A DNA stretch of 37,610 bases. Origin: an uncultured Faecalibacterium sp. GTDB taxonomy: Bacteria > Bacillota > Clostridia > Oscillospirales > Ruminococcaceae. Where the stretch lies: the NCBI GenBank assembly GCA_944385995.1, contig CALWZL010000017.1, positions 1 through 37,610 on the forward strand, read 5' to 3'. Below are positions 520 to 11,432 of the stretch, piece after piece; the stretch's first letter is position 1, and the number at the start of each line of letters is the position of its first letter. The notes below the pieces were generated by a model. It made no database searches. It was not told where the DNA came from and worked only from the letters and a program-made list of their open reading frames with translations. The position numbers and the translations under genes were made by a program.

Positions 520-1707
520 TTAAAAATAACTTCTGATCTGGAATTTGTCCCCGCTGTCCTTCTTTTCCTCCACCACAATGTGCTCATGGTTGAAGTCAAA
601 GTGGACCGGCAGGCACAGATCGGTGTTGCGGGTCATTCGCAGCAGCTCATCCACCCGCTTTTTCTCGTCCGGCATATAGAACAAATAGCTGACGCCCTCC
701 TTTTTGGCGCGGCCGGTGCGGCCAATCCGGTGGGTGTAATGTTCATTGTCCGAGGGAACGTCATAGTTGATGACCGCGTCCACATCCGACACGTCAATGC
801 CCCGGGCGGCCACATCGGTGGCCACCAGCACCGACACCTTCCCATCCCGGAAGCTCTGCATAATCCGGTTGCGGTCCTTCTGGGAGAGGTCGCCGTGGAG
901 GCAGTCCACCGAGAAGCCCAGCCGGGCCAGCTGATTGGCCAGGGTGGCGGTGGCGAACTTGGTGTCACAGAACACCATCACCCGCTTGTACCCCTCCCCA
1001 ATGATGAGCTGGGCCAGGTCGGACAGTTTGTTGCGGCCGGAGGTCTCCAGCTTGTACTGGGTGATCTTGGGCTGGCTCTCCTCTTTGGGCTGGACGGTGA
1101 TCTCCTCGGCGTCCCGCTGGTAGAGCCAGCCGATATCCATCACCTCCCGGCTGATGGTGGCCGAGAACATGGACAGGGACTTCCGGTTCTTCATCAGGTC
1201 GATGATGTGCCGCACATCCTTATAGAACCCCATATTCAGCATCTCGTCCGCTTCGTCCAGGACAATCTGGGTCACATGGCTCAGGTCGATGCTGCGGTGC
1301 TTGTAGTGGTCCATCAGGCGGCCCGGGGTGGCCACCACGATCTGACAGCCCTCCGCCAGGCGGCGGGCCTGCTTTTCCATGTTGGCGCCGCCATAGACGC
1401 AGGCCACCTTGACCCCCGGCATGAAATAGGTCAGATCCTCCAGATCCCCTGCAATCTGCTGGGCCAGTTCCCGGGTGGGGGCCAGAATCACTGCCTGGGG
1501 CCAGGTTTTTTCGGGGTCGATCTGTTCGGCCACCGGAATGCCAAAGGCACAGGTCTTGCCGGTGCCAGTGGGGGCTTTGGCGATCACGTCCCGTCCTGCC
1601 ATCATCAGGGGGATCACCTTTTCCTGAATTTCGGTCATCTCCTCGAAGCCCATCCGCTCTACCGCCTGGTGGATGGCTTCGCTGCACTGTAATTCACTGT
1701 AACGCAT
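520..1707 (-). CDS. DEAD-box ATP-dependent RNA helicase
   Basis: A 395-residue ATP-dependent RNA helicase that unwinds or remodels RNA duplexes in the cytoplasm. All helicase motifs are visible in order: a Q motif (GFEEMTEIQ, 20-28), Walker A APTGTGKT (45-52), PTRELA (about 77-82), TPGR (127-130), DEAD (151-154), SAT (182-184), ATDVAARGID and HRIGRTGRA in the second RecA domain. The protein stops soon after the core, so it lacks the long RNA-binding tail of DeaD/DbpA types; it may be CshA-like, but substrate cannot be read from the sequence. The ATG at 1707 was chosen because GGAG sits 7 bases upstream; the frame stays open further upstream but has no ribosome site. It lies beside the rRNA operon, which suits a role in ribosome assembly or RNA decay (inference). 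Confidence 0.93.
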   Translation of the reverse strand: MRYSELQCSEAIHQAVERMGFEEMTEIQEKVIPLMMAGRDVIAKAPTGTGKTCAFGIPVAEQIDPEKTWPQAVILAPTRELAQQIAGDLEDLTYFMPGVKVACVYGGANMEKQARRLAEGCQIVVATPGRLMDHYKHRSIDLSHVTQIVLDEADEMLNMGFYKDVRHIIDLMKNRKSLSMFSATISREVMDIGWLYQRDAEEITVQPKEESQPKITQYKLETSGRNKLSDLAQLIIGEGYKRVMVFCDTKFATATLANQLARLGFSVDCLHGDLSQKDRNRIMQSFRDGKVSVLVATDVAARGIDVSDVDAVINYDVPSDNEHYTHRIGRTGRAKKEGVSYLFYMPDEKKRVDELLRMTRNTDLCLPVHFDFNHEHIVVEEKKDSGDKFQIRSYF

Positions 1708-1755
1708 GATTTTCTCCGTTCCTCTTGGGTCTGCGCATTTTGTCAAATCATTGTT

Positions 1756-1764
1756 AGTATAGCA
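1756..1764 (-). promoter_or_regulatory. Extended -10 promoter for the helicase gene
   Basis: On the minus strand TGCTATACT gives an extended -10 (TG, one base, TATACT at 1756-1761). The matching -35 is poor. It lies about 50 bases upstream of the helicase ATG. Confidence 0.5.
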
Positions 1765-1805
1765 CGCCGCGCGGCTTCTGAAAAGCCTTCTTTCCCTGCT
1801 GCGGC

Positions 1806-1844
1806 ATACAAAAAGGCCGGAACGCCCCTTGACGCCCGGCCTTT
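1806..1844 (-). terminator. Intrinsic terminator of the HU gene
   Basis: On the minus strand AAAGGCCGG (1836-1844) pairs with CCGGCCTTT (1812-1820) and is followed by a T run. It starts 15 bases after the HU stop codon. Confidence 0.85.
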
Positions 1845-1858
1845 CATCTATGGAATTG

Positions 1859-2182
1859 TTACGCCGTCTCTTCCAGAGCCTTGTTTTCGGCTGCTGCGGC
1901 TGCACGGGCAGCCTCCAGCTTCTGTTTGAAGCGGCCGCTTGCCTTGAAGCCGGGAATCGAAGTGGACTCCAGGCGGCTGGACACCTTGGTCTTGGGGTTG
2001 GTGTAAGCCTTGGGCTTGCGGGGACGCATTTCAAACCGGCCAAACCCGGCGATGGTCACCTTTTCGTCCGAACGCAGGCACTCTGCGATCTGGTCAAACA
2101 TAGCGTCCATCGTCATTTCGACCTGGCTCTCGGGGAAGCCGGTCTTGCGGGCAACGGTCTCGATCATCTGGGAACGGGTCAT
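1859..2182 (-). CDS. HU-family DNA-binding protein
   Basis: A 107-residue histone-like nucleoid protein that binds and bends DNA as a dimer. The HU fold is recognisable: the N-terminal helices (MTRSQMIETVARKTGF), the VTIAGFGRFE hairpin (about residues 43-52) and the DNA-minor-groove arm rich in R, K and P. It is longer than the usual 90-92 residues because of a C-terminal Ala/Glu/Lys tail of roughly 15-20 residues. The start is supported by AGGAGG 9 bases before ATG. It is monocistronic, with its own terminator and a probable extended -10 promoter about 110 bases upstream, giving a long 5' leader. The function is sure at family level; HU versus IHF-like is less so, but Firmicutes normally carry HU. 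Confidence 0.93.
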   Translation of the reverse strand: MTRSQMIETVARKTGFPESQVEMTMDAMFDQIAECLRSDEKVTIAGFGRFEMRPRKPKAYTNPKTKVSSRLESTSIPGFKASGRFKQKLEAARAAAAAENKALEETA

Positions 2183-2359: not shown

Positions 2360-5300
2360 TTATTTTTCCTTATACAGCGTTGCAATGTCCACCAGCGGCA
2401 CATTTTTCAGGCTGTGCTCGCTGCGCAGGCAGTTGACCAGAGCGTTGGCGGTATCCACTGCCGTAATGCAGGGGATGCTCAGTTCCACGGCCTTGCGGCG
2501 CAGGCGGACCGAGTCACGCCGGGGGTCACGCCCCTTGGCACTGGTCGAGAAGACATAGTCCACCAGCCCGCTCTGGAGCAGGTCGACAATATTGGGCGAT
2601 TCGCCCGACATATTCCGCACCTCGTTGCAGGGAACCATGTGCTTGTTCAGCCAGGCACAGGTGCCGGAGGTGCCGTACAGTTTATAGCCCATGCTCTTGA
2701 GCTTCCAGGCGATGTCCACAAATTCGGGCTTGTCGCTGTCCTTGACGGTGAAGATGCAGCAGCTGGCGGGGCCGGGGGTCTTGAAGGTATAGCCCGCGCC
2801 AATCAGGCCCTTGAGCAGGGCGTCATGGTAGTTGGGGGCAATGCCCAGCACCTCGCCGGTGGACTTCATCTCGGGGCCAAACTGGGTATCCACGCCGTGG
2901 AGCTTTTCAAAGCTGAAGACAGGCACCTTGACGGCCACATAGGGCGCATTGGGGTGCAGGCCGGTGCCGTAACCCATATCGGCCAGCTTTTCACCCAGGC
3001 AGCAGCGGACCGCCAGGTCCACCATGGGCACGCCGGTGACCTTGGAGATATAGGGGACGGTACGGGACGAACGGGGGTTCACCTCGATGACGTAGACCTT
3101 GCCGTCCGAAACGGCGTACTGAACGTTGACCAGACCCACCACTTTCAGCTCACGGGCAAAGCGGCCGGTGTAGTCCACCATGGTATCAATGACGCTCTGG
3201 GACAGGTGCTGTGCCGGATAGACACAGATGGAGTCGCCGGAGTGAACGCCAGTCCGCTCCACCTGCTCCATGATGCCGGGAATCAGGAAATCGGTGCCGT
3301 CGCAGATGGCGTCCACCTCGCACTCGGTGCCCTGGATATACTTGTCCAGCAGGACCGGGTGATCCATATCCACATGCTCGGTGATGACGCCCATATACTC
3401 GATGACATCAGCCTGGGTGTAGGCCACGATCATATTCTGACCGCCCAGGACGTAGGAGGGGCGCATCAGGACCGGCAGGCCGATCTCGTCGGCTGCGGCC
3501 AGGGCTTCCTCCAGGGTAAAGACGGTGCGGCCGGGGGCGCGGGGAATCTTGCACCGCTCCAGCAGCTCATCGAACCGCTCCCGGTCCTCGGCCTCGTCGA
3601 TGGCGTCGGCGGGGGTGCCCAGGATGGGCAGGCCCACTTCGTCCATGTGCTTGGCCAGCTTGATGGCGGTCTGGCCGCCGAACTGGACCACGCAGCCGTC
3701 CGGCTTCTCGGTGGCGATGATGTTGTCCACGCTCTCGGGGGTCAGGGGGTCAAAGTACAGGCGGTCGCCGGTATCGAAGTCGGTGGAGACGGTCTCGGGG
3801 TTGTTGTTGACCAGGATGGCCTCGCAGCCGTGCTTTTTCAGGGTCCAGACACAGTGCACCGAGCAGTAGTCGAACTCGATGCCCTGACCGATCCGAATGG
3901 GCCCCGAACCAAAGACCAGAATCCGCTTTTTGTGGGGCTTGCCCGCCTCTTTTTCCGCGATGAATTCGGCGGCCTCGTTGTCGCCGTCATAAGTGGAATA
4001 GAAATAGGGGGTGTTGGCCGAGAACTCGGCGGCGCAGGTGTCAACCATCTTAAAGCCGGCCCGGTAATTCTCAACCGGCAGCTGTTCCACCTGAGCCAGG
4101 CGGCGGATGGTCTTATCCTGGAAGCCGTACTTCTTGGCCTCCTTGTACTGTTCCACGCTCAGGACGCCGTTGCAGCGGGCCAGACCGTTTTCCAGGTTGG
4201 CCAGGTGCTGCATCTTGTCCAGGAACCACCAGTCGATCTTGGTAATATTGTAGATGGTCTGGTGGTCGATGCCACGCTTCAGGGCCTCGTAGACGCAGAA
4301 CACCCGCTCGGAATCCTGCACATGCAGGTGGGCGATGACTTCCTGGTCGTCCATCTCCACAAAGGGCTTGTGGGTCAGGGTGTCCATGCCCAGCTCGATG
4401 GAGGAGACAGCCTTCATCATGGCGGCCTCGAAGCTGTTGCCGATGGACATGACTTCGCCGGTGGCCATCATCTGGGTGCCCAGGGACTTGTCCGCATAGA
4501 CAAACTTGTCAAAGGGCCACTTCGGGTATTTGACGACAATATAGTCCAGCGCGGGCTCGAAGCAGGCGCAGGTCTTGCCGGTGACATCGTTGGTGATCTC
4601 GTCCAGGGTGTAGCCGATGGCGATCTTGGTGGCCACCTTGGCAATGGGATAACCGGTGGCCTTGGAGGCCAGGGCCGACGAGCGGGACACACGGGGGTTG
4701 ACCTCGATGACCGCATAGTCAAAGCTGTCGGGCTTCAGGGCAAACTGGCAGTTGCAGCCGCCCTCGATGCCCAGCTCGGTGATGATATCCAGGGCCGCGG
4801 TGCGGAGCATCTGGTATTCGTGGTCGCTCAGGGTCTGGGAGGGAGCCACAACCACCGAGTCGCCGGTGTGGATGCCCACGGGGTCCAGGTTCTCCATGTT
4901 GCAGACGGTGATGACGTTGCCCTTGTGGTCCCGCATCACCTCATATTCGATCTCTTTCCAGCCGGCGATGCACTTTTCCACCAAAATCTGGTGGATGGGG
5001 GAAAGCCGCAGGCCGTTGGTGCCGATCTCGATCAGCTTGGCCTTGTCCTCGCAGATGCCGCCGCCGGTGCCGCCCATGGTAAAGGCGGGCCGGACGATGA
5101 CCGGGTAGCCGATCCGGTCGGCGCAGGCCAGCGCGTCCTCCAGCGTCTCCACCACCTCGGAGGGGATGATGGGCTGGTGCAGCTTTTCCATCGTCTCCTT
5201 GAACAGCTCGCGGTCCTCGGCGCGGTCGATGGTCTCGGGCTTGCAGGCCAGCAGCCGGATGCCGGTGCGGTCCAGATAGCCGCTGCGGGCCAGCTCCATG

Positions 5301-5596
5301 GACAGGTTCAGGCCCATCTGGCCGCCCAGGTTGGGCAGCACCGAGTCGGGCTTTTCGATGTCCAGGATGCGCTCCACCACCTCCAGGGTCATGGGCTCGA
5401 TGTAGACGTGGTCGGCCACGTCGGGGTCGGTCATGATGGTGGCAGGGTTGGAGTTCAGCAGAACCGTCTCGATGCCTTCCGCTTTCAGGGCGCGGCAGGC
5501 CTGGGTGCCCGAGTAGTCAAACTCGGCAGCCTGTCCGATGATGATGGGGCCGGAGCCAATGACCAGCACCTTTTTGATTCTGGGGTCCTTGGGCAT
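2360..5596 (-). CDS. carB: Carbamoyl-phosphate synthase, large (ammonia) subunit
   Basis: Makes carbamoyl phosphate from bicarbonate, ammonia supplied by CarA, and two ATP; first step of pyrimidine synthesis and a precursor for arginine. The protein has 1,078 residues, matching the usual ~1,070. The two homologous halves each open with a GSGP nucleotide-fold motif (IGSGPIIIGQ near residue 13 and FGSGPIRIGQ near 565) followed by an ATP-grasp domain, and the last ~150 residues form the MGS-like allosteric domain (the region that binds UMP/ornithine in the E. coli enzyme). The ATG follows the carA stop after a single base, with AAAGGAGG inside the end of carA, so the two are translationally coupled. 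It is the last gene of pyrE-carA-carB. No strong terminator was seen downstream. Confidence 0.98.
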   Translation of the reverse strand: MPKDPRIKKVLVIGSGPIIIGQAAEFDYSGTQACRALKAEGIETVLLNSNPATIMTDPDVADHVYIEPMTLEVVERILDIEKPDSVLPNLGGQMGLNLSMELARSGYLDRTGIRLLACKPETIDRAEDRELFKETMEKLHQPIIPSEVVETLEDALACADRIGYPVIVRPAFTMGGTGGGICEDKAKLIEIGTNGLRLSPIHQILVEKCIAGWKEIEYEVMRDHKGNVITVCNMENLDPVGIHTGDSVVVAPSQTLSDHEYQMLRTAALDIITELGIEGGCNCQFALKPDSFDYAVIEVNPRVSRSSALASKATGYPIAKVATKIAIGYTLDEITNDVTGKTCACFEPALDYIVVKYPKWPFDKFVYADKSLGTQMMATGEVMSIGNSFEAAMMKAVSSIELGMDTLTHKPFVEMDDQEVIAHLHVQDSERVFCVYEALKRGIDHQTIYNITKIDWWFLDKMQHLANLENGLARCNGVLSVEQYKEAKKYGFQDKTIRRLAQVEQLPVENYRAGFKMVDTCAAEFSANTPYFYSTYDGDNEAAEFIAEKEAGKPHKKRILVFGSGPIRIGQGIEFDYCSVHCVWTLKKHGCEAILVNNNPETVSTDFDTGDRLYFDPLTPESVDNIIATEKPDGCVVQFGGQTAIKLAKHMDEVGLPILGTPADAIDEAEDRERFDELLERCKIPRAPGRTVFTLEEALAAADEIGLPVLMRPSYVLGGQNMIVAYTQADVIEYMGVITEHVDMDHPVLLDKYIQGTECEVDAICDGTDFLIPGIMEQVERTGVHSGDSICVYPAQHLSQSVIDTMVDYTGRFARELKVVGLVNVQYAVSDGKVYVIEVNPRSSRTVPYISKVTGVPMVDLAVRCCLGEKLADMGYGTGLHPNAPYVAVKVPVFSFEKLHGVDTQFGPEMKSTGEVLGIAPNYHDALLKGLIGAGYTFKTPGPASCCIFTVKDSDKPEFVDIAWKLKSMGYKLYGTSGTCAWLNKHMVPCNEVRNMSGESPNIVDLLQSGLVDYVFSTSAKGRDPRRDSVRLRRKAVELSIPCITAVDTANALVNCLRSEHSLKNVPLVDIATLYKEK

Positions 5597-5597
5597 A

Positions 5598-6704
5598 TCA
5601 GCGAGCCTCCTTTGCGTTCTTTACATTGGTCAGGAAACGGTCGAAGAGGAACTCTGTATCCTTGGGGCCGCCGTTTGCTTCCGGGTGGAACTGGACGGTA
5701 AAGCAGTTCCATTTCTTGTACTGGATGCCTTCACAGGTACCGTCGTTGGCATTGACCTGGGCCACTGTGCCCATCTCGGGGGGCAGCTGGTCCCCCACCA
5801 CCGCATAGCCGTGGTTCTGGCTGGTGATGAAGGTGCGGCCGCTGGCAAAGTCGGTCACAGGCTGGTTGGCGCCGCGGTGGCCGTACTTGAGCTTGGTGGT
5901 CTTGGCGCCGGCGGCCAGGGCCGACAGCTGATGGCCCAGGCAGATGCCGAAGGTGGGGATGTTCAGCGCAAAAATTTCGCGCAGATTCTGGATGGCCTCC
6001 ACCGGCTCGGCGGGGTCGCCGGGGCCGTTGGACAGCATGATGCCGTCCGGGTTCAGGGCGGCCACCTGCTGGGCCGTGGAGAAGGCGGGCATCACCGTGA
6101 CCTTGCAGCCGCGGCGGACCAGGCAGCGGACAATGTTCCGCTTGCAGCCGTAGTCCATCAGGACAATATGGGGCGCGCCGGCAGGGTTGTGAACTTCAGG
6201 CGCAGCACAGGTGACGCTCTTGACGGCGTCGGTGACGGCATAGGCCTTCACCTGGGCCAGCAGGGCGTCGGTCTGCTCTTTGTTGGCGGGGTCGGCGGGA
6301 TCAAAGGTGGTGAGGATGGCGCCGTTCATGACGCCGCTCTCCCGGATCACCCGGGTCAGATGACGGGTGTCGATCCCCTCGATGCCGATGATGTTGTTTT
6401 TCTTCAAAAAGCTGTCCAGCGTCTCTTCCGAGCGCCAGTTGGACGGGGTCTTACAGGCCTCGCGGACAATGTAGCCCCGGGCCCAGACTTTGCCCGACTC
6501 CATATCCCAGTGATTCATGCCGTAATTGCCGATCAGGGGGTAGGTCTGGGTGATGATCTGGCCATAGTAGCTGGGGTCGGTGAGGGTCTCTTCAAAACCC
6601 ACCATGCCGGTGGCAAAGACCACCTCGCCCACCGTGACGCCTTCAGCGCCCACCGACTGGCCCGCAAAAACCATTCCGTTTGCCAAAAGAAGATATGCGT
6701 TCAT
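5598..6704 (-). CDS. carA: Carbamoyl-phosphate synthase, small (glutaminase) subunit
   Basis: Hydrolyses glutamine and passes ammonia to CarB. The protein has 368 residues, normal for the family. The N-terminal CPSase small-chain domain (about 1-140) is followed by a class I glutamine amidotransferase domain: the nucleophile is in GICLGHQ (Cys255) and the catalytic His/Glu pair is in QFHPEA near residue 343. The stop codon is one base before the carB start. pyrE lies upstream in the same direction with about 31 bases between, so pyrE, carA and carB are very probably one transcript. Confidence 0.98.
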   Translation of the reverse strand: MNAYLLLANGMVFAGQSVGAEGVTVGEVVFATGMVGFEETLTDPSYYGQIITQTYPLIGNYGMNHWDMESGKVWARGYIVREACKTPSNWRSEETLDSFLKKNNIIGIEGIDTRHLTRVIRESGVMNGAILTTFDPADPANKEQTDALLAQVKAYAVTDAVKSVTCAAPEVHNPAGAPHIVLMDYGCKRNIVRCLVRRGCKVTVMPAFSTAQQVAALNPDGIMLSNGPGDPAEPVEAIQNLREIFALNIPTFGICLGHQLSALAAGAKTTKLKYGHRGANQPVTDFASGRTFITSQNHGYAVVGDQLPPEMGTVAQVNANDGTCEGIQYKKWNCFTVQFHPEANGGPKDTEFLFDRFLTNVKNAKEAR

Positions 6705-6735: not shown

Positions 6736-7329
6736 TTACAGGGTCTGCTTGGCCTGCTGGTTCATCTTGCGGCTGCCCAGGTGCACCAGGGGCAGCTTGC
6801 CCTCCTTGCACAGGGGGCACTCATCGGGGGCATAGTTGGGCAGATCCAGCTTGAGGGCGCAGGCCAGGATGGGGATGGGAGACGGAGCCTCGGGCTTGGT
6901 GCGGTCCACCACGCAGGTGATGCCCAGGCAGATGCCGCCGGCCTCTTCGATGGCCCGCTTGGTCTCCAGGGAGGAGATGCCGGTGGTGACCACGTCCTCG
7001 GCGATGATGCACTTCTCACCCGGATGGATCACAAACCGCTTGAGGGTCATGACGTTGTCCACACGCTCGGTGAAGATGGCGCGCAGGCCGGTCTGACGGG
7101 CCAGCTCGTAAGCGTAGACGATGCCGCCCATGGCGGGTCCGACGATGACATCGGCGCCCAGCTCCTTGATCTTGGCGGCCACAGGAGCCATCACCTCGGC
7201 GCACCGGTCGGGGTACTGCTGCAGGAATGCCATCTGGCAATAGGCGCTGGAATGGCGGCCCGACGACAGCAGGAAATGGCCCTCCAGGAACGCGTCACAG
7301 CTCTTCAAAATCTCAATCGCTTCACTCAT
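6736..7329 (-). CDS. pyrE: Orotate phosphoribosyltransferase
   Basis: Transfers the phosphoribosyl group of PRPP to orotate, giving orotidine monophosphate. The 197-residue protein has the type I PRPP-binding signature IIAEDVVTTG (about 108-117) and the substrate loops GPAMGGIVYA (64-73) and TERVDN (87-92). The C-terminus continues to a YAPDECPLCKEG segment with two cysteines, as in the longer clostridial/thermophile PyrE group. A GAGGAAGGGAG ribosome site lies upstream of ATG. It is the first gene of pyrE-carA-carB and has a good promoter only about 45 bases upstream. Confidence 0.96.
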   Translation of the reverse strand: MSEAIEILKSCDAFLEGHFLLSSGRHSSAYCQMAFLQQYPDRCAEVMAPVAAKIKELGADVIVGPAMGGIVYAYELARQTGLRAIFTERVDNVMTLKRFVIHPGEKCIIAEDVVTTGISSLETKRAIEEAGGICLGITCVVDRTKPEAPSPIPILACALKLDLPNYAPDECPLCKEGKLPLVHLGSRKMNQQAKQTL

Positions 7330-7454: not shown

Positions 7455-8372
7455 TCACCGGGCGCAGCCGCGGATTTCCTCCAGGCTGGCGACGCCGTGG
7501 GCATCCATCCAGGCGGCCATCTCGTCGGCGATGGTCTCCATGGCCCGGGGATTGGCGAAGTTGGCCGCGCCCACCTGGACTGCGGCGGCGCCCGCCATGA
7601 TGAACTCCAGGGCATCCCGGCCGGTCGCGATGCCGCCCAGGCCCACCACGGGGATCTGGACCGCACCCACCGCCTGCCAGACCATCCGCAGGGCAATGGG
7701 CCGCACCGCCGGGCCGGACAGACCGGCAAAGATGTTGTCAAAGACGGGGCGGCGCTTTTCCAGGTCGATGGCGCAGGCCTGGAAGGTATTGGTCAGGCTG
7801 ATGGCGTCGGCGCCGGCGGCTTCCACCGCCTTGCACATCTCGGGGATGTTCTCAGCCTGGGGGCTGAGCTTGACCATCAGGGGCTTTTTGCAGACGGCAC
7901 GGACCATCCGCACCACCTCGCCGGCGGCGTCGGCCTTGACGCCGTAGGCCATGCCGCCCTGTTTGACGTTGGGACAGCTGATGTTCAGCTCGATGATGTC
8001 CACCGCGCTGTCATTCAGCAGGGCCGCCCCTTCCACATATTCTTCCTCGCTGTGGCCCCCCAGATTCGCGATCACCACCGTGCCGTACTGCTGCTTCAGG
8101 GTGAGCATCTCATGGAGTTCCACATCGATGAAGTGCTGCACGCCGGGGTTCTGGAGGCCGATGCTGTTGATGAGGCCCGAAGGGGTCTCCCACAGCCGCT
8201 CGCCCTTGTTGCCGAACTGGCCGTGAAGGGTCAGTCCCTTGCCCGAAATGCCGCCGATCTTGCTGAAATCGGCCAGGTCCTCATACTCGACCCCATAGCC
8301 CACCGTACCGGACGCGCCGATGATGGGACTGTTCATCTGGAAGCCGAGGAGGTTTGTAGTCAGGTCTGCCAT
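7455..8372 (-). CDS. pyrD: Dihydroorotate dehydrogenase B (NAD+), catalytic subunit
   Basis: Oxidises dihydroorotate to orotate using FMN; in class 1B the electrons leave through PyrK to NAD+, which suits an anaerobe. The protein has 305 residues. It has the class 1 catalytic cysteine in NISCPNVK (Cys133) and the FMN phosphate site near GLGGIATGRDA. The start overlaps the end of pyrK by 13 bases, as expected for two subunits of one heterotetramer. It is the last gene of the pyrC-pyrF-pyrK-pyrD run; a 125-base gap carrying the pyrE promoter follows. Confidence 0.97.
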   Translation of the reverse strand: MADLTTNLLGFQMNSPIIGASGTVGYGVEYEDLADFSKIGGISGKGLTLHGQFGNKGERLWETPSGLINSIGLQNPGVQHFIDVELHEMLTLKQQYGTVVIANLGGHSEEEYVEGAALLNDSAVDIIELNISCPNVKQGGMAYGVKADAAGEVVRMVRAVCKKPLMVKLSPQAENIPEMCKAVEAAGADAISLTNTFQACAIDLEKRRPVFDNIFAGLSGPAVRPIALRMVWQAVGAVQIPVVGLGGIATGRDALEFIMAGAAAVQVGAANFANPRAMETIADEMAAWMDAHGVASLEEIRGCAR

Positions 8373-9139
8373 CCGAACACCTCCGTTCCCGCAAAGACAG
8401 GGCCGTCCTTACAGACGCTCCTGGCGCCCGAGGCGGTCTCGATGGTGCAGCCCAGGCATGCGCCGATGCCGCAGGCCATCTTCTTTTCCAGACTGACCAG
8501 GCAGGGGGTGCCCTTTTCGGCGCAGAGGCGGGCTGCATTTTTCATCATGGGCGTGGGCCCGCAGATCAAAACAACATCGTAGTCGGCCGGGTCATACAGC
8601 TGGGTCACAAACCCATGGAAGCCGAACCGGCCGCTGTCGGTGGAAATTTTGACGATGCCGGCCAGAGAGCGGTACTGCTCCATGCAGTAGGGCTCATCCC
8701 GGAACCCGAAGAACACGTCGGGGGTGCGGCCGCAGGCGGCCAGTTCCCGGGCCAGCTGGTACATGGGAGCAGTGCCGATGCCGCCGCCCACCAGGGCGAT
8801 CTTCTGGTATTTTTGGGCGATGGCGGGCACATCGAAGCCATTGCCCATGGGGCCGGTGAGCTGGATGATGTCCCCTTCGGCCAGAGCGGCCAGCTTTTCG
8901 GTGCCCTTGCCCACAATCTGGTACAGGAACGAGACGGTCAGAGTCTCAGGCTCCCACTTGTGGACGCTAATGGGGCGGGACAGGAAGGGTGCCTCCCCTG
9001 CGCCCCAGCTGCGCAGGGTGAAGAACTGCCCCGCATGGGGGGCGTGGCCGGGATTGGGCCAGAGAACCCGCAGCAGCCGGATATCCGACGCCACGACGCT
9101 GTGACCCAGGACGGTGGCCTCACAGCAGGCTGCACGCAT
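8360..9139 (-). CDS. pyrK: Dihydroorotate dehydrogenase B, electron-transfer subunit
   Basis: Carries electrons from PyrD to NAD+. The 259-residue protein has a ferredoxin-reductase fold: FAD-binding RPISV near residue 55, a nucleotide-binding GGGIGTAP near 118, and a C-terminal [2Fe-2S] cysteine set (CGIGACLGC and a later SVCKDGPVF). The ATG at 9139 was chosen because AGGAGG lies 9 bases before it; a TTG two codons earlier is too close to that site. It overlaps the 3' end of pyrF by 20 bases and the start of pyrD by 13, so the three genes are tightly coupled. Confidence 0.95.
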   Translation of the reverse strand: MRAACCEATVLGHSVVASDIRLLRVLWPNPGHAPHAGQFFTLRSWGAGEAPFLSRPISVHKWEPETLTVSFLYQIVGKGTEKLAALAEGDIIQLTGPMGNGFDVPAIAQKYQKIALVGGGIGTAPMYQLARELAACGRTPDVFFGFRDEPYCMEQYRSLAGIVKISTDSGRFGFHGFVTQLYDPADYDVVLICGPTPMMKNAARLCAEKGTPCLVSLEKKMACGIGACLGCTIETASGARSVCKDGPVFAGTEVFGWQT

Positions 9140-10007
9140 GGGCAATGGCCTCCTTCATGTTGACGCACTCGTTGTAGGCGGCCTCATCGAAGGCCACGCC
9201 GGGCTGTTTCTTGTAGGCCAGCAGGATGCCGCGGCTGGAATTGACGGTGCCGCCGTTGCCCTGGTTCAGATACTGGGCAATGTCTTCGGCCTTGCCGCCC
9301 TGGGCGCCGTAGCCGGGAATCAGGAAGAAGCTGTCTTTGTACCGTGCGCGGATCTCGGCAGCCTCCTCGATGTGGGTGCCGCCGATGACCAGACCGATCG
9401 AGGAGTAGCCGTGCTCGCCCATATAGTTCTTGCCCAGCTCGTTCAGCTTGTCGCCCACCAGGTCATAGACGTGGCGGCCGTCGGCCAGCTTCTCATACTC
9501 GAAGTCCTTGGCGCCGCCGTTGGAGGTGCGGCAGAGGACAAACATGCCCTTGCCGGCCTTTTCGGCGTAGGGCAGATAGGGGCTGATGGAATCCAGACCC
9601 ATGTAGGGGGCCAGGGTCACAAAGTCGGCCTCAAAGTCCCCGGTGAAGTGGCCCATGGCGTACATCTCGGCGGTCTTGGCGATGTCGCCCCGCTTGATGT
9701 CGGCAATGACCGGCACGCCGGCTTCCCGGACCGCCCGGAGGGTCTCGGCATAAGCCCGCAGGCCGTCCAGGCCCAGGGCCTCATAGTAAGCGATCTGCAC
9801 CTTGTAGCAGCCGGCCACCGCCTTGGTGGCGGCAATCAGCGCCTTGTTGAACCGGACAATATTTTCGCCCTTGCTCAGGGTTTCATCCACAAAGTCCCCG
9901 GGCAGATAGGAAAAATCGGTATCCAGGCCGACGCAGACCGGGCCACGGGCCTCGACTGCCTCATACAGCTTATCCATGTTGGTCATCATAACATCATTCC
10001 CTTTCAT
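9120..10007 (-). CDS. pyrF: Orotidine-5'-phosphate decarboxylase (type 2)
   Basis: Decarboxylates OMP to UMP, the last step of the de novo route. The protein has about 295 residues and belongs to the longer type 2 group (about 270-310 residues, unlike the ~235-residue Bacillus/E. coli form), with VGLDTDF near the N-terminus, the catalytic DIKRGD (103-108) and a late IPGYGAQGG motif. The start at 10007 has AAGGAT upstream and lies 8 bases after the pyrC stop; an alternative ATG at 9989 would remove six residues. Its 3' end overlaps pyrK. Confidence 0.94.
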   Translation of the reverse strand: MKGNDVMMTNMDKLYEAVEARGPVCVGLDTDFSYLPGDFVDETLSKGENIVRFNKALIAATKAVAGCYKVQIAYYEALGLDGLRAYAETLRAVREAGVPVIADIKRGDIAKTAEMYAMGHFTGDFEADFVTLAPYMGLDSISPYLPYAEKAGKGMFVLCRTSNGGAKDFEYEKLADGRHVYDLVGDKLNELGKNYMGEHGYSSIGLVIGGTHIEEAAEIRARYKDSFFLIPGYGAQGGKAEDIAQYLNQGNGGTVNSSRGILLAYKKQPGVAFDEAAYNECVNMKEAIAHACSLL

Positions 10008-10015
10008 TGTGATCC

Positions 10016-11203
10016 TTACTCAGCCTGATAGGTAATCCGGCCGCCCTTGATGGTGGCGCAGACCCGGCCATACAGCGAAGCCCCGTGATAGGGGCAGTTC
10101 TTGGATTTGGAGTGGAGCTTTTCCCGGTCCACCGTGTAGGGGGTGTTCAGGTCCACCAGCACCAGGTCGGCGTCGTAGCCGGGCTCCAGGCGGCCCTTGT
10201 TCAGACCCAGAATTTCGGCCGGCCGGCCGCTCATCAGCTCGCTCAGCAGCTCCAGAGGCAGACCCTCACCGCGGCAGAGCTTGGTGTAGCAGACGCCGAA
10301 GGCGGTCTCGCTGCCCACCATGCCGGCGGCGCCTGCCGCCTTATCCTCCTCCGAATGGGGGGCGTGGTCGGTGGAAATGGCATCCACGGTGCCGTCCCGG
10401 ATGGCATCCACCAGGGCCGCCACATCGTCGGCGGTGCGGATGGGAGGATTCACCCGATAATCGCACAGGTCCTCGGTGAACCACAGGTGATGGGGCGTCA
10501 CCTCACAGGTGACGGGGGCACCCCGCAGCTTGGCGATGCGGATGGCCTCGATGGCCCCCCGGGTGGAGACATGGCACATGTGGAGCCTGGTCTGGTAGTA
10601 CTCGCTGAGCCAGCAGTTGCGGAGGGTTTCCACATCCTCGGCCAGCCGGTAATCCCAGGGGCTGATCTCCATGTCCTCGGCGTGGCTCATGATGGTGATC
10701 CCCTTCTGGTGGCAGATGGCAAAAGCCTTGGCCATGACGCTGGCGCTCTGGACCCCGTGGCCGTCCTCGGTCACAAAGTGGACCGACGTGGGCAGGGTTT
10801 TCAGATGGTCCAGGGTGTGGCCGTCAAAGTTCTGGGTGATGGAGACGGTCTGGTTGGCGTCGCACAGCCCCACCCGGGCGGCCTCGTCCTCGATCATGGC
10901 CGCCTGGGCCACCGAAGAACAGACCGGCTTGGTGTTGGGCATCAGATTGACGAAGGTGTAGCCGCCGGCGGCTGCCGCACGGCTGCCGGTGGTGATGTCC
11001 TCCTTGTATTCAAAACCAGGGGTGCGCCAGTGGACGTGCAGGTCCACAAAGGCGGGCAGGACGGCCAGACCGCCCGCGTCCACCACAGGCTCATCCGGGC
11101 CGGCCAGAGCTGCCAGACCCCGGCCCACCGCCTGGATTTTTCCGCCGCTGAGGTAAAGTTCGATTTCTTCTCCATGGATGTCCACTGCATGTTGAATCAG
11201 CAT
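10016..11203 (-). CDS. pyrC: Dihydroorotase (class I)
   Basis: Cyclises carbamoyl aspartate to dihydroorotate. The 395-residue protein belongs to the amidohydrolase superfamily. Metal-binding positions are visible: HVH (56-58) followed by WRTPG, HAED (174-177), CHVST (His211) and STDHAPH (Asp/His around 278-283). The ATG at 11203 is preceded by AAAAAGGAGG at a normal distance. The same frame stays open upstream for 45 more codons, but that stretch is the transcribed leader with the attenuator and has no start signal. It is the first gene of pyrC-pyrF-pyrK-pyrD and is probably controlled by the leader terminator 44 bases upstream. Confidence 0.96.
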   Translation of the reverse strand: MLIQHAVDIHGEEIELYLSGGKIQAVGRGLAALAGPDEPVVDAGGLAVLPAFVDLHVHWRTPGFEYKEDITTGSRAAAAGGYTFVNLMPNTKPVCSSVAQAAMIEDEAARVGLCDANQTVSITQNFDGHTLDHLKTLPTSVHFVTEDGHGVQSASVMAKAFAICHQKGITIMSHAEDMEISPWDYRLAEDVETLRNCWLSEYYQTRLHMCHVSTRGAIEAIRIAKLRGAPVTCEVTPHHLWFTEDLCDYRVNPPIRTADDVAALVDAIRDGTVDAISTDHAPHSEEDKAAGAAGMVGSETAFGVCYTKLCRGEGLPLELLSELMSGRPAEILGLNKGRLEPGYDADLVLVDLNTPYTVDREKLHSKSKNCPYHGASLYGRVCATIKGGRITYQAE

Positions 11204-11245
11204 GACCGCTTCCTCCTTTTTGAAGCCGCACCGGGACGGCGCGGG

Positions 11246-11277
11246 CAAAAAAAAACTTTTCCCGAACGGGAAAAGTT
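11246..11277 (-). terminator. Leader terminator (attenuator) of the pyr operon
   Basis: On the minus strand AACTTTTCCC pairs with GGGAAAAGTT around a GTTC loop (10-bp stem, 11254-11277) and is followed by nine T (11247-11255 region). It is a textbook intrinsic terminator but lies between the pyr promoter and the pyrC ribosome site, so the operon can be expressed only when it is read through. No PyrR-type binding loop was seen in the leader. Confidence 0.85.
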
Positions 11278-11366
11278 CAAATTTTGAAAACGGGGAACAA
11301 ACCGGCTGCGAAAAAACCGGCTGCGAAGCACATCTCAAGCTTTTCAGCGCCGTAGATGGACATCAT
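11277..11366 (-). CDS. Putative pyr operon leader peptide (29 aa)
   Basis: An open frame of 29 codons within the pyr leader, starting at a double ATG (11366 and 11363) with AAAGGGG as ribosome site about 9 bases upstream. It encodes MMSIYGAEKL..., with a repeated FAAG segment from a 14-base direct repeat (11299-11312 and 11314-11327), and ends PVFKI. Its TGA (11279-11277) touches the first base of the attenuator stem, so a ribosome reaching the end would cover the 5' arm and block the terminator. U-rich tracts in the second half could make RNA polymerase pause when UTP is low. This is the arrangement known for E. coli pyrBI and pyrE, here inferred from sequence only. The peptide itself probably has no function of its own. 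Confidence 0.6.
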   Translation of the reverse strand: MMSIYGAEKLEMCFAAGFFAAGLFPVFKI

Positions 11367-11402
11367 GGCATAGTTCCCCTTTCTGCGATTGTCTTTCGGT
11401 TT

Positions 11403-11432
11403 ATTTTATCATAGAAACGCAAAAAGTGTCAA
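11403..11432 (-). promoter_or_regulatory. Promoter of the pyrC operon
   Basis: On the minus strand there is a perfect -35 TTGACA (11427-11432) and a -10 TAAAAT (11403-11408), spacer 18, with an extended -10 TG just before it. The predicted start is near 11396, giving a leader of about 190 bases before pyrC. Confidence 0.85.

Follow-up and report, generated by a model that had tools for sequence, protein, structure and literature searches.

Translation of a short leader open reading frame (ORF) probably works a transcription attenuator in front of the pyrimidine operon of an uncultured Faecalibacterium sp. The leader lies in a window of 37,610 nucleotides, the whole stretch of DNA that was analyzed. 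The best reading of its anatomy is a ribosome-coupled attenuation that replaces PyrR in a clade of Firmicutes, with UTP as the likely signal and with an RNA helix that may serve as a gate on the ribosome site of the leader. In Firmicutes, pyrimidine genes are usually regulated by PyrR. The first-pass annotation had proposed the logic of the pyrBI and pyrE attenuators of E. coli, and this proposal is supported comparatively, not functionally, by an ORF frame that is kept and by the absence of both a PyrR site and PyrR. Judged by its anatomy, the leader appears to work like pyrBI and pyrE attenuation.

The operon has the gene order pyrC-pyrF-pyrK-pyrD-pyrE-carA-carB and runs on the minus strand from 11203 to 2360, with the leader upstream. 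The following genes were assigned (window coordinates):

10016..11203, minus strand: pyrC, dihydroorotase, first gene of the operon (TIGR00857, 308.5 bits, cut-off 279.05)
9120..10007, minus strand: pyrF (TIGR02127)
8360..9145, minus strand: pyrK, dihydroorotate dehydrogenase electron transfer subunit (NF000798)
7455..8372, minus strand: pyrD (NF005574)
6736..7329, minus strand: pyrE (TIGR01367)
5598..6704, minus strand: carA (TIGR01368)
2360..5596, minus strand: carB (TIGR01369)

Downstream of carB, on the same strand, is a gene for a DEAD-box RNA helicase (window 520-2040, minus). The leader itself is made up of the following features:

11427..11432, minus strand: -35 element TTGACA (consensus scan)
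11403..11408, minus strand: -10 element TAAAAT, preceded by TG (consensus scan)
11373..11380, minus strand: leader ribosome site AGGGGAAC, upstream of the ATG, and predicted strand 1 of the ribosome-site helix (sequence)
11277..11366, minus strand: leader ORF of 29 codons plus TGA with the peptide MMSIYGAEKLEMCFAAGFFAAGLFPVFKI, kept in 30/30 readable Faecalibacterium leaders
11280..11330, minus strand: U-rich 3' part of the leader ORF, T fraction 0.39 (base composition)
11286..11298, minus strand: tract GTTCCCCGTTTTC, predicted partner of the leader ribosome site (duplex prediction)
11253..11278, minus strand: terminator hairpin, first stem base within the leader stop codon (terminator scan and genus comparison)
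11247..11255, minus strand: nine-T tract of the terminator (sequence)

The consensus promoter reported ahead of the leader was recovered by the scan as TTGACA-18-TAAAAT at 11432..11403 on the minus strand, with 11/12 consensus matches, and was the sole site found in the region. Transcription is expected to start near 11396. Coordinates and letters of the 29-codon ORF with its good ribosome site (AGGGGAAC before ATG) had been read correctly; the start is ambiguous, with in-frame ATGs at 11366 and 11363, which corrects the earlier description. The terminator was likewise found as described, with a 10-bp stem that begins within the stop codon and is followed by nine T, the stem measuring 10 bp if counted from the A of TGA and 11 bp if counted from the G. 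The T tract ends about 43 nt from the start of pyrC. The leader RNA with its terminator (11397..11205) folded better than shuffled sequences (z -2.81), 2 of 200 shuffles being equally good. A simple terminator scan of the region gave one terminator against 1.3 expected in shuffles and was not significant alone. The terminator pattern occurred once in the own assembly, and the reversed-pattern control did not occur. No Rfam family was matched in a scan of the leader region. A tandem pair of GCAGCCGGTTT-T/G-TTC was observed in the leader (window 11295-11324, minus strand), encoding AAGFFAAGLF; the tandem copies are common to close relatives and missing from other Faecalibacterium.

Leaders were readable in 30 of 31 Faecalibacterium genomes; G018, in which the end of pyrC alone was matched, was left out. 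An ORF of 24 to 33 codons preceded by a Shine-Dalgarno (SD) sequence and a terminator of the form CTTTTCC..GGAAAAG were present in 30/30 leaders. The stop codon was located on the stem base in 29 of them, starting 4 or 5 nt before TTTTCC, which equals -2 when measured, as for ordinary genes, from the end of the stop to the start of the stem. The exception is G025 (L018), where the stop falls in the terminator loop. Among the 27 distinct leaders the ORF frame was free of stops (0/775 codons), compared to 33/748 and 18/748 in the shifted frames, and dN/dS was 0.55 in the ORF versus 0.72 and 0.81 in the shifted frames (95 pairs). The stop-free frame together with a dN/dS of 0.55 indicates that the ORF is kept and that the peptide is weakly constrained. 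The leaders are related by descent, and the counts are therefore not independent. Conservation of frame, stop position and terminator in relatives, which the first-pass annotation had named as a check, was observed: no stop in 775 codons, and a stop position that is retained even between unrelated peptides. The stem CTTTTCC..GGAAAAG, or one nearly identical, is kept across most genera examined (L004-L033, L183-L206), which exceeds the needs of a terminator.

Leaders of the same design were found beyond the genus. A family search identified a close PyrC (E <= 1e-100) in 43 of 298 genomes, 6 of them Faecalibacterium, and 36 of the 37 others were readable, the contig of G266 starting inside pyrB. 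A leader ORF and terminator were present in 34 of these 36 genomes, in 24 before pyrC and in 10 before pyrB; the leader precedes pyrB in pyrB-pyrC operons, where pyrB comes first. Non-ATG starts were required in L184, L188 and L190 (TTG) and in L053, L054 and L227 (GTG). Of the 34 leaders, 27 have the stop on the stem base, one (L206) has it 10 nt upstream of the stem and four (L221, L222, L224, L225) have it inside the hairpin, while two (L227 and L230, read by eye) cross the terminator and end just before pyrB. No such leader was found ahead of pyrB in L223 (G184) and L229 (G142). Upstream of pyrB these two hold a purine-rich and then a pyrimidine-rich stretch with U runs, perhaps an attenuator of a different kind. 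Between genera the leader peptides are unrelated, and the ORF, the stop position and the terminator persist. Leaders were also seen in the named genera Gemmiger (L053, L054, L057), Fournierella (L059) and Anaerofilum (L055, L056), which overlap with the family genomes and were left out of the 34/36 count.

The first-pass annotation had seen no PyrR binding loop at the leader, and a covariance search with RF00515 agreed, as the PyrR RNA site was absent from the window and from all 31 Faecalibacterium genomes. A genome search for pyrR, foreseen there as a check, gave no PyrR protein (NF003549) over the cut-off in any of the 31 genomes, 30 of which had weak matches below 30 bits; the best match in the own genome, an assembly that is 88% complete, scored 26.2 bits against a cut-off of 138. 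In the family sample, PyrR was over the cut-off in 85/198 genomes and the Rfam PyrR RNA was detected in 68/198 at E <= 0.001, with 11 over the gathering score. The sample included 24 of the 37 non-Faecalibacterium genomes of the leader search, and PyrR was over the cut-off in 0/24. Many family genomes are without both PyrR and a close PyrC.

A stop codon at distance zero or less from a terminator stem was seen at 0/55 ordinary terminators of G006 (a Faecalibacterium), 2/23 of G221, 0/18 of G195, 1/31 of G143 and 0/14 of E. coli, in samples of 14 to 55 terminators per genome taken from mechanical gene calls. A scanner for short SD-preceded ORFs whose stop overlaps a terminator stem, which recovers 29/30 known Faecalibacterium leaders, gave no match in 800 kb of G006 and one match, not U-rich, in 400 kb of the relative G221. 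As possible genome-wide signs of coupling, the share of terminators starting no more than 12 nt after a stop and the coding purine fraction were compared. The share was 18% in G006 and 52% in G221, both members of the clade that has the leader; two genomes with PyrR gave 17% and 58%, and E. coli gave 29%. Closeness of terminators to the stop does not follow PyrR status. In G143 and G221 (stretches L251-L290) over half of the terminators lie within 12 nt of a stop, unlike in G006 and G195. The coding purine fraction was 0.50-0.51 in all five genomes (G006, G221, the two PyrR genomes and E. coli). Clostridium and Paenibacillaceae loci had purine fractions of 0.594 and 0.523, with 1 and 3 terminators, respectively, which are too few to use.

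The U-rich tracts reported in the leader were confirmed as a property of the genus. Over the final 51 nt of the ORF the T fraction was 0.409 (range 0.25-0.51; 27 distinct Faecalibacterium leaders), compared to 0.204 (sd 0.069) in background windows, and 24/27 leaders were above the background 95th percentile. The enrichment was restricted to the 3' half of the ORF (T 0.416, against 0.22 in the 5' half). Points against the attenuator reading are that the longest U run is 3 in 7/67 leaders, that G184 and G142 lack the leader and that some leaders need TTG or GTG starts. T was also frequent at the third position of codons other than those for phenylalanine (108/307, or 0.352, versus 0.190 in the background), and the TTT:TTC ratio was 82:41 in leaders versus 1671:1995 in the background. 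A need for phenylalanine alone is thus insufficient to explain the U-richness, because T is enriched at these third positions too and TTT is favoured. The U-rich 3' half looks like a zone in which polymerase may be slowed in response to UTP.

The leader ribosome site is complementary to the 3' part of the ORF. Complementarity of GGGGAAC (11379-11373) to GTTCCCC (11298-11292) had been pointed out in the first-pass annotation and stands as described, but the predicted helix extends beyond 7 bp (GAAAGGGGAAC with GUUCCCC..UUUC). Pairing was analyzed in 64 distinct sequences of 67 leaders (30 Faecalibacterium, 33 other and 4 of the named genera). The 20 nt before the start paired with the own ORF 3' part at -18.4 kcal/mol, compared to -15.4 kcal/mol for swapped partners, and 0/5000 permutations were as good. 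Against shuffled tracts the ribosome site gave a mean z of -1.58 with a 57-nt tract (34/64 below -1.64) and -1.40 with a 42-nt tract (31/64 below -1.64). Controls were near zero: -0.02 for the ribosome site with the 5' half, -0.12 for an upstream segment with the tract, -0.13 for the shuffled ribosome site with the tract and +0.08 for the pyrC ribosome site with the tract (27 leaders). With codon-order shuffles the mean z was -1.51 and 30/64 leaders were below -1.64, whereas 400 ordinary Faecalibacterium genes gave +0.14, with 22/400 below -1.64; the complementarity thus extends across the clade. Pairing between the ribosome site and the final 50 nt of the ORF had a predicted probability of 0.84, compared to 0.42 in codon-shuffled sequences, and this probability was higher than codon-shuffled in 27/27 Faecalibacterium leaders.

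Two Faecalibacterium clades differ at two positions of the tract, with G-C (10/10) versus A-U (10/10) at position -16 and G-C (8) or G-U (2) versus A-U (10) at position -13. The pairs were drawn from the best duplex of each sequence itself and are therefore biased towards the structure. When one leader was drawn from each of eight groups, which hold 45 of the 64 leaders, matched partners were better than swapped ones by a mean of 3.43 kcal/mol, in 300/300 draws. Within groups, B to F favour matched pairs, in clade A swapped pairs were slightly better (-17.68 vs -16.92), and G and H were equal; the outcome in A, G and H would be predicted for interchangeable sequences inside a group and adds no support for the helix. 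RNAalifold on a MAFFT alignment of 23 Faecalibacterium leaders, with the terminator left out, gave no pairs and no consensus structure. Support for the helix comes from per-sequence tests, because the spacing of the ribosome site shifts the register in an alignment. By eye, pairing of the terminator arms with the ribosome site or the tract was short and was dropped. The ribosome-site pairing is non-random, and comparison argues for the helix, which may have the role of a gate.

The following mechanism is suggested by these features. Polymerase would initiate upstream of the leader, and a ribosome may load at the leader ribosome site. At low UTP, polymerase would slow in the U-rich 3' half of the ORF and the loaded ribosome would catch up. 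A ribosome reaches about 12 nt beyond the first base of a stop codon. Judged from the geometry, the 5' arm of the terminator would be masked by a ribosome that has arrived at the stop or close to it, no hairpin would form, and read-through into pyrC would result. With ample UTP, polymerase would stay ahead, the hairpin would form and transcription would end. The tract near the 3' end of the ORF, once transcribed, would pair with the leader ribosome site and could shut out late ribosomes. As helix formation must wait until polymerase has cleared the tract at the ORF end, the leader would close to late ribosomes, and a ribosome would count if loaded early or granted time by a slow polymerase. 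The helix could be such a timing gate or simply a silencer of finished leaders.

A bolder reading, entertained here as a real possibility on the doubtful side, is that of a self-closing attenuator replacing PyrR in this clade of Firmicutes. The nascent RNA would set a timed loading window, its length given by polymerase speed across the U-rich half of the ORF, and UTP would be read as ribosome-loading time and not solely as how far the ribosome trails polymerase. In Faecalibacterium much of the tract would also be covered by a ribosome at the stop; both the translated and the untranslated state would then be self-sustaining, and the leader would be a switch in this genus.

Whatever the cause of polymerase slowing, the geometry demands that a ribosome be near the stop, and across the clade the ribosome-site helix is conserved; both would suit a translation-dependent attenuator that answers to ribosome loading or general growth state, the U-richness merely aiding pausing and UTP being no signal. 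This was judged unlikely, as just the 3' half of the ORF is enriched in U and no other operon so arranged was found in 800 kb of G006. The leader of E. coli pheA senses phenylalanine by ribosome stalling, and sensing of an amino acid, chiefly phenylalanine, was considered here because phenylalanine makes up 15.9% of residues (mean of 64 distinct leaders), compared to 3.7% in ordinary ORFs. Such a sensor is very improbable. Neither the minimum-energy and centroid folds nor the alignment fold (the latter without the terminator) showed an alternative hairpin overlapping the terminator, and a ribosome stalled upstream would leave the terminator free, which is the wrong sign. Furthermore, T is enriched at the non-phenylalanine third positions too, phenylalanine is scarce in L205 (1/23 codons) and L228 (4/34), and the downstream genes are those of pyrimidine synthesis. 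An RNA element read by a metabolite (a riboswitch) or by some protein that is not PyrR, with the ORF incidental, would agree with the better-than-shuffled fold of the leader (z -2.81) and the closed domain between ribosome site and tract. The chance of this seems slight indeed, given that no Rfam family was found in the region and no consensus structure in 23 Faecalibacterium leaders, that the frame is stop-free, and that between genera just the ORF, the stop position and the terminator persist. A small protein gene with a terminator of its own, the pyrimidine genes using another promoter, would account for the good ribosome site and the dN/dS of 0.55 but seems just as improbable, as the T tract lies about 43 nt from pyrC, the sole promoter match is upstream of the leader, and the peptides are unrelated between genera, yet the stop stays on the stem.

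UTP-sensing, ribosome-coupled attenuation, the reading preferred here, has counterparts in known systems. In the E. coli rph-pyrE attenuator the frame ends just before the terminator, and the terminating ribosome blocks the hairpin. The geometry of the frame end is similar in Faecalibacterium, but rph is an enzyme gene and the leader here has 24 to 33 codons. In E. coli pyrBI a U-rich translated leader ORF, pyrL, is likewise followed by an intrinsic terminator and then by pyrimidine genes. Tight coupling across this leader is needed to prevent the terminator, according to a passage in PMC5021804. The relatives L227 and L230 share with pyrL a leader that crosses the terminator to near pyrB. The leader ends of L227 and E. 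coli pyrL (L311) are alike (NRGVFFLPAARR, NRGAFFCPGVRR), which is probably imposed by the hairpin arm and the T run. What sets the clade apart from pyrL is the stop, placed on the stem base in most leaders, together with unrelated peptides and a different phylum. Unlike the clade leaders, E. coli pyrL had no pairing between ribosome site and ORF (four windows, z -0.44 to 1.17). The PyrR attenuator of Firmicutes (RF00515) is also a terminator-based control of the same operon, whereas 31/31 Faecalibacterium genomes are without PyrR over the cut-off or a PyrR site.

Two things about this attenuator appear to be new: within a clade of Firmicutes it occupies the position of PyrR, and it has the ribosome-site helix, which may add a new element to the design of attenuators. 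The authors of a survey from 2010 wrote that they knew of no demonstrated leader-peptide system beyond Proteobacteria and Actinobacteria, apart from the atypical leader of ermC, until their own histidine case in bacilli (PMC2965389). In a literature search no Faecalibacterium pyrimidine leader was found; subscription journals were mostly outside its coverage, and absence in print is not proven. For B. subtilis, Johnson et al. (2020) reported that transcription outruns translation, as summarized in the review PMC7858274. If common gut Firmicutes have a conserved control that works only when a ribosome follows polymerase closely, this control would report naturally on coupling in the phylum. The clade would also be a case of one regulator occupying the place of the other regulator of its relatives, in pyrE-like and pyrBI-like forms.

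The presence of the same leader at the aspartate carbamoyltransferase genes of Faecalibacterium was ruled out, as no terminator was found in about 600 nt upstream of the best-scoring copy at 30 loci. For the second copy of this gene, no leader was seen in the 10 loci viewed by eye; L161 and L162 look like broken copies or copies of the first type. The own genome has two aspartate carbamoyltransferase genes, L153 (G000:C12) and L144 (G000:C4), both without the leader. Judged by eye from motifs, one copy presumably lies between purA-like and pyrI-like genes and the other after a GntR-like regulator.
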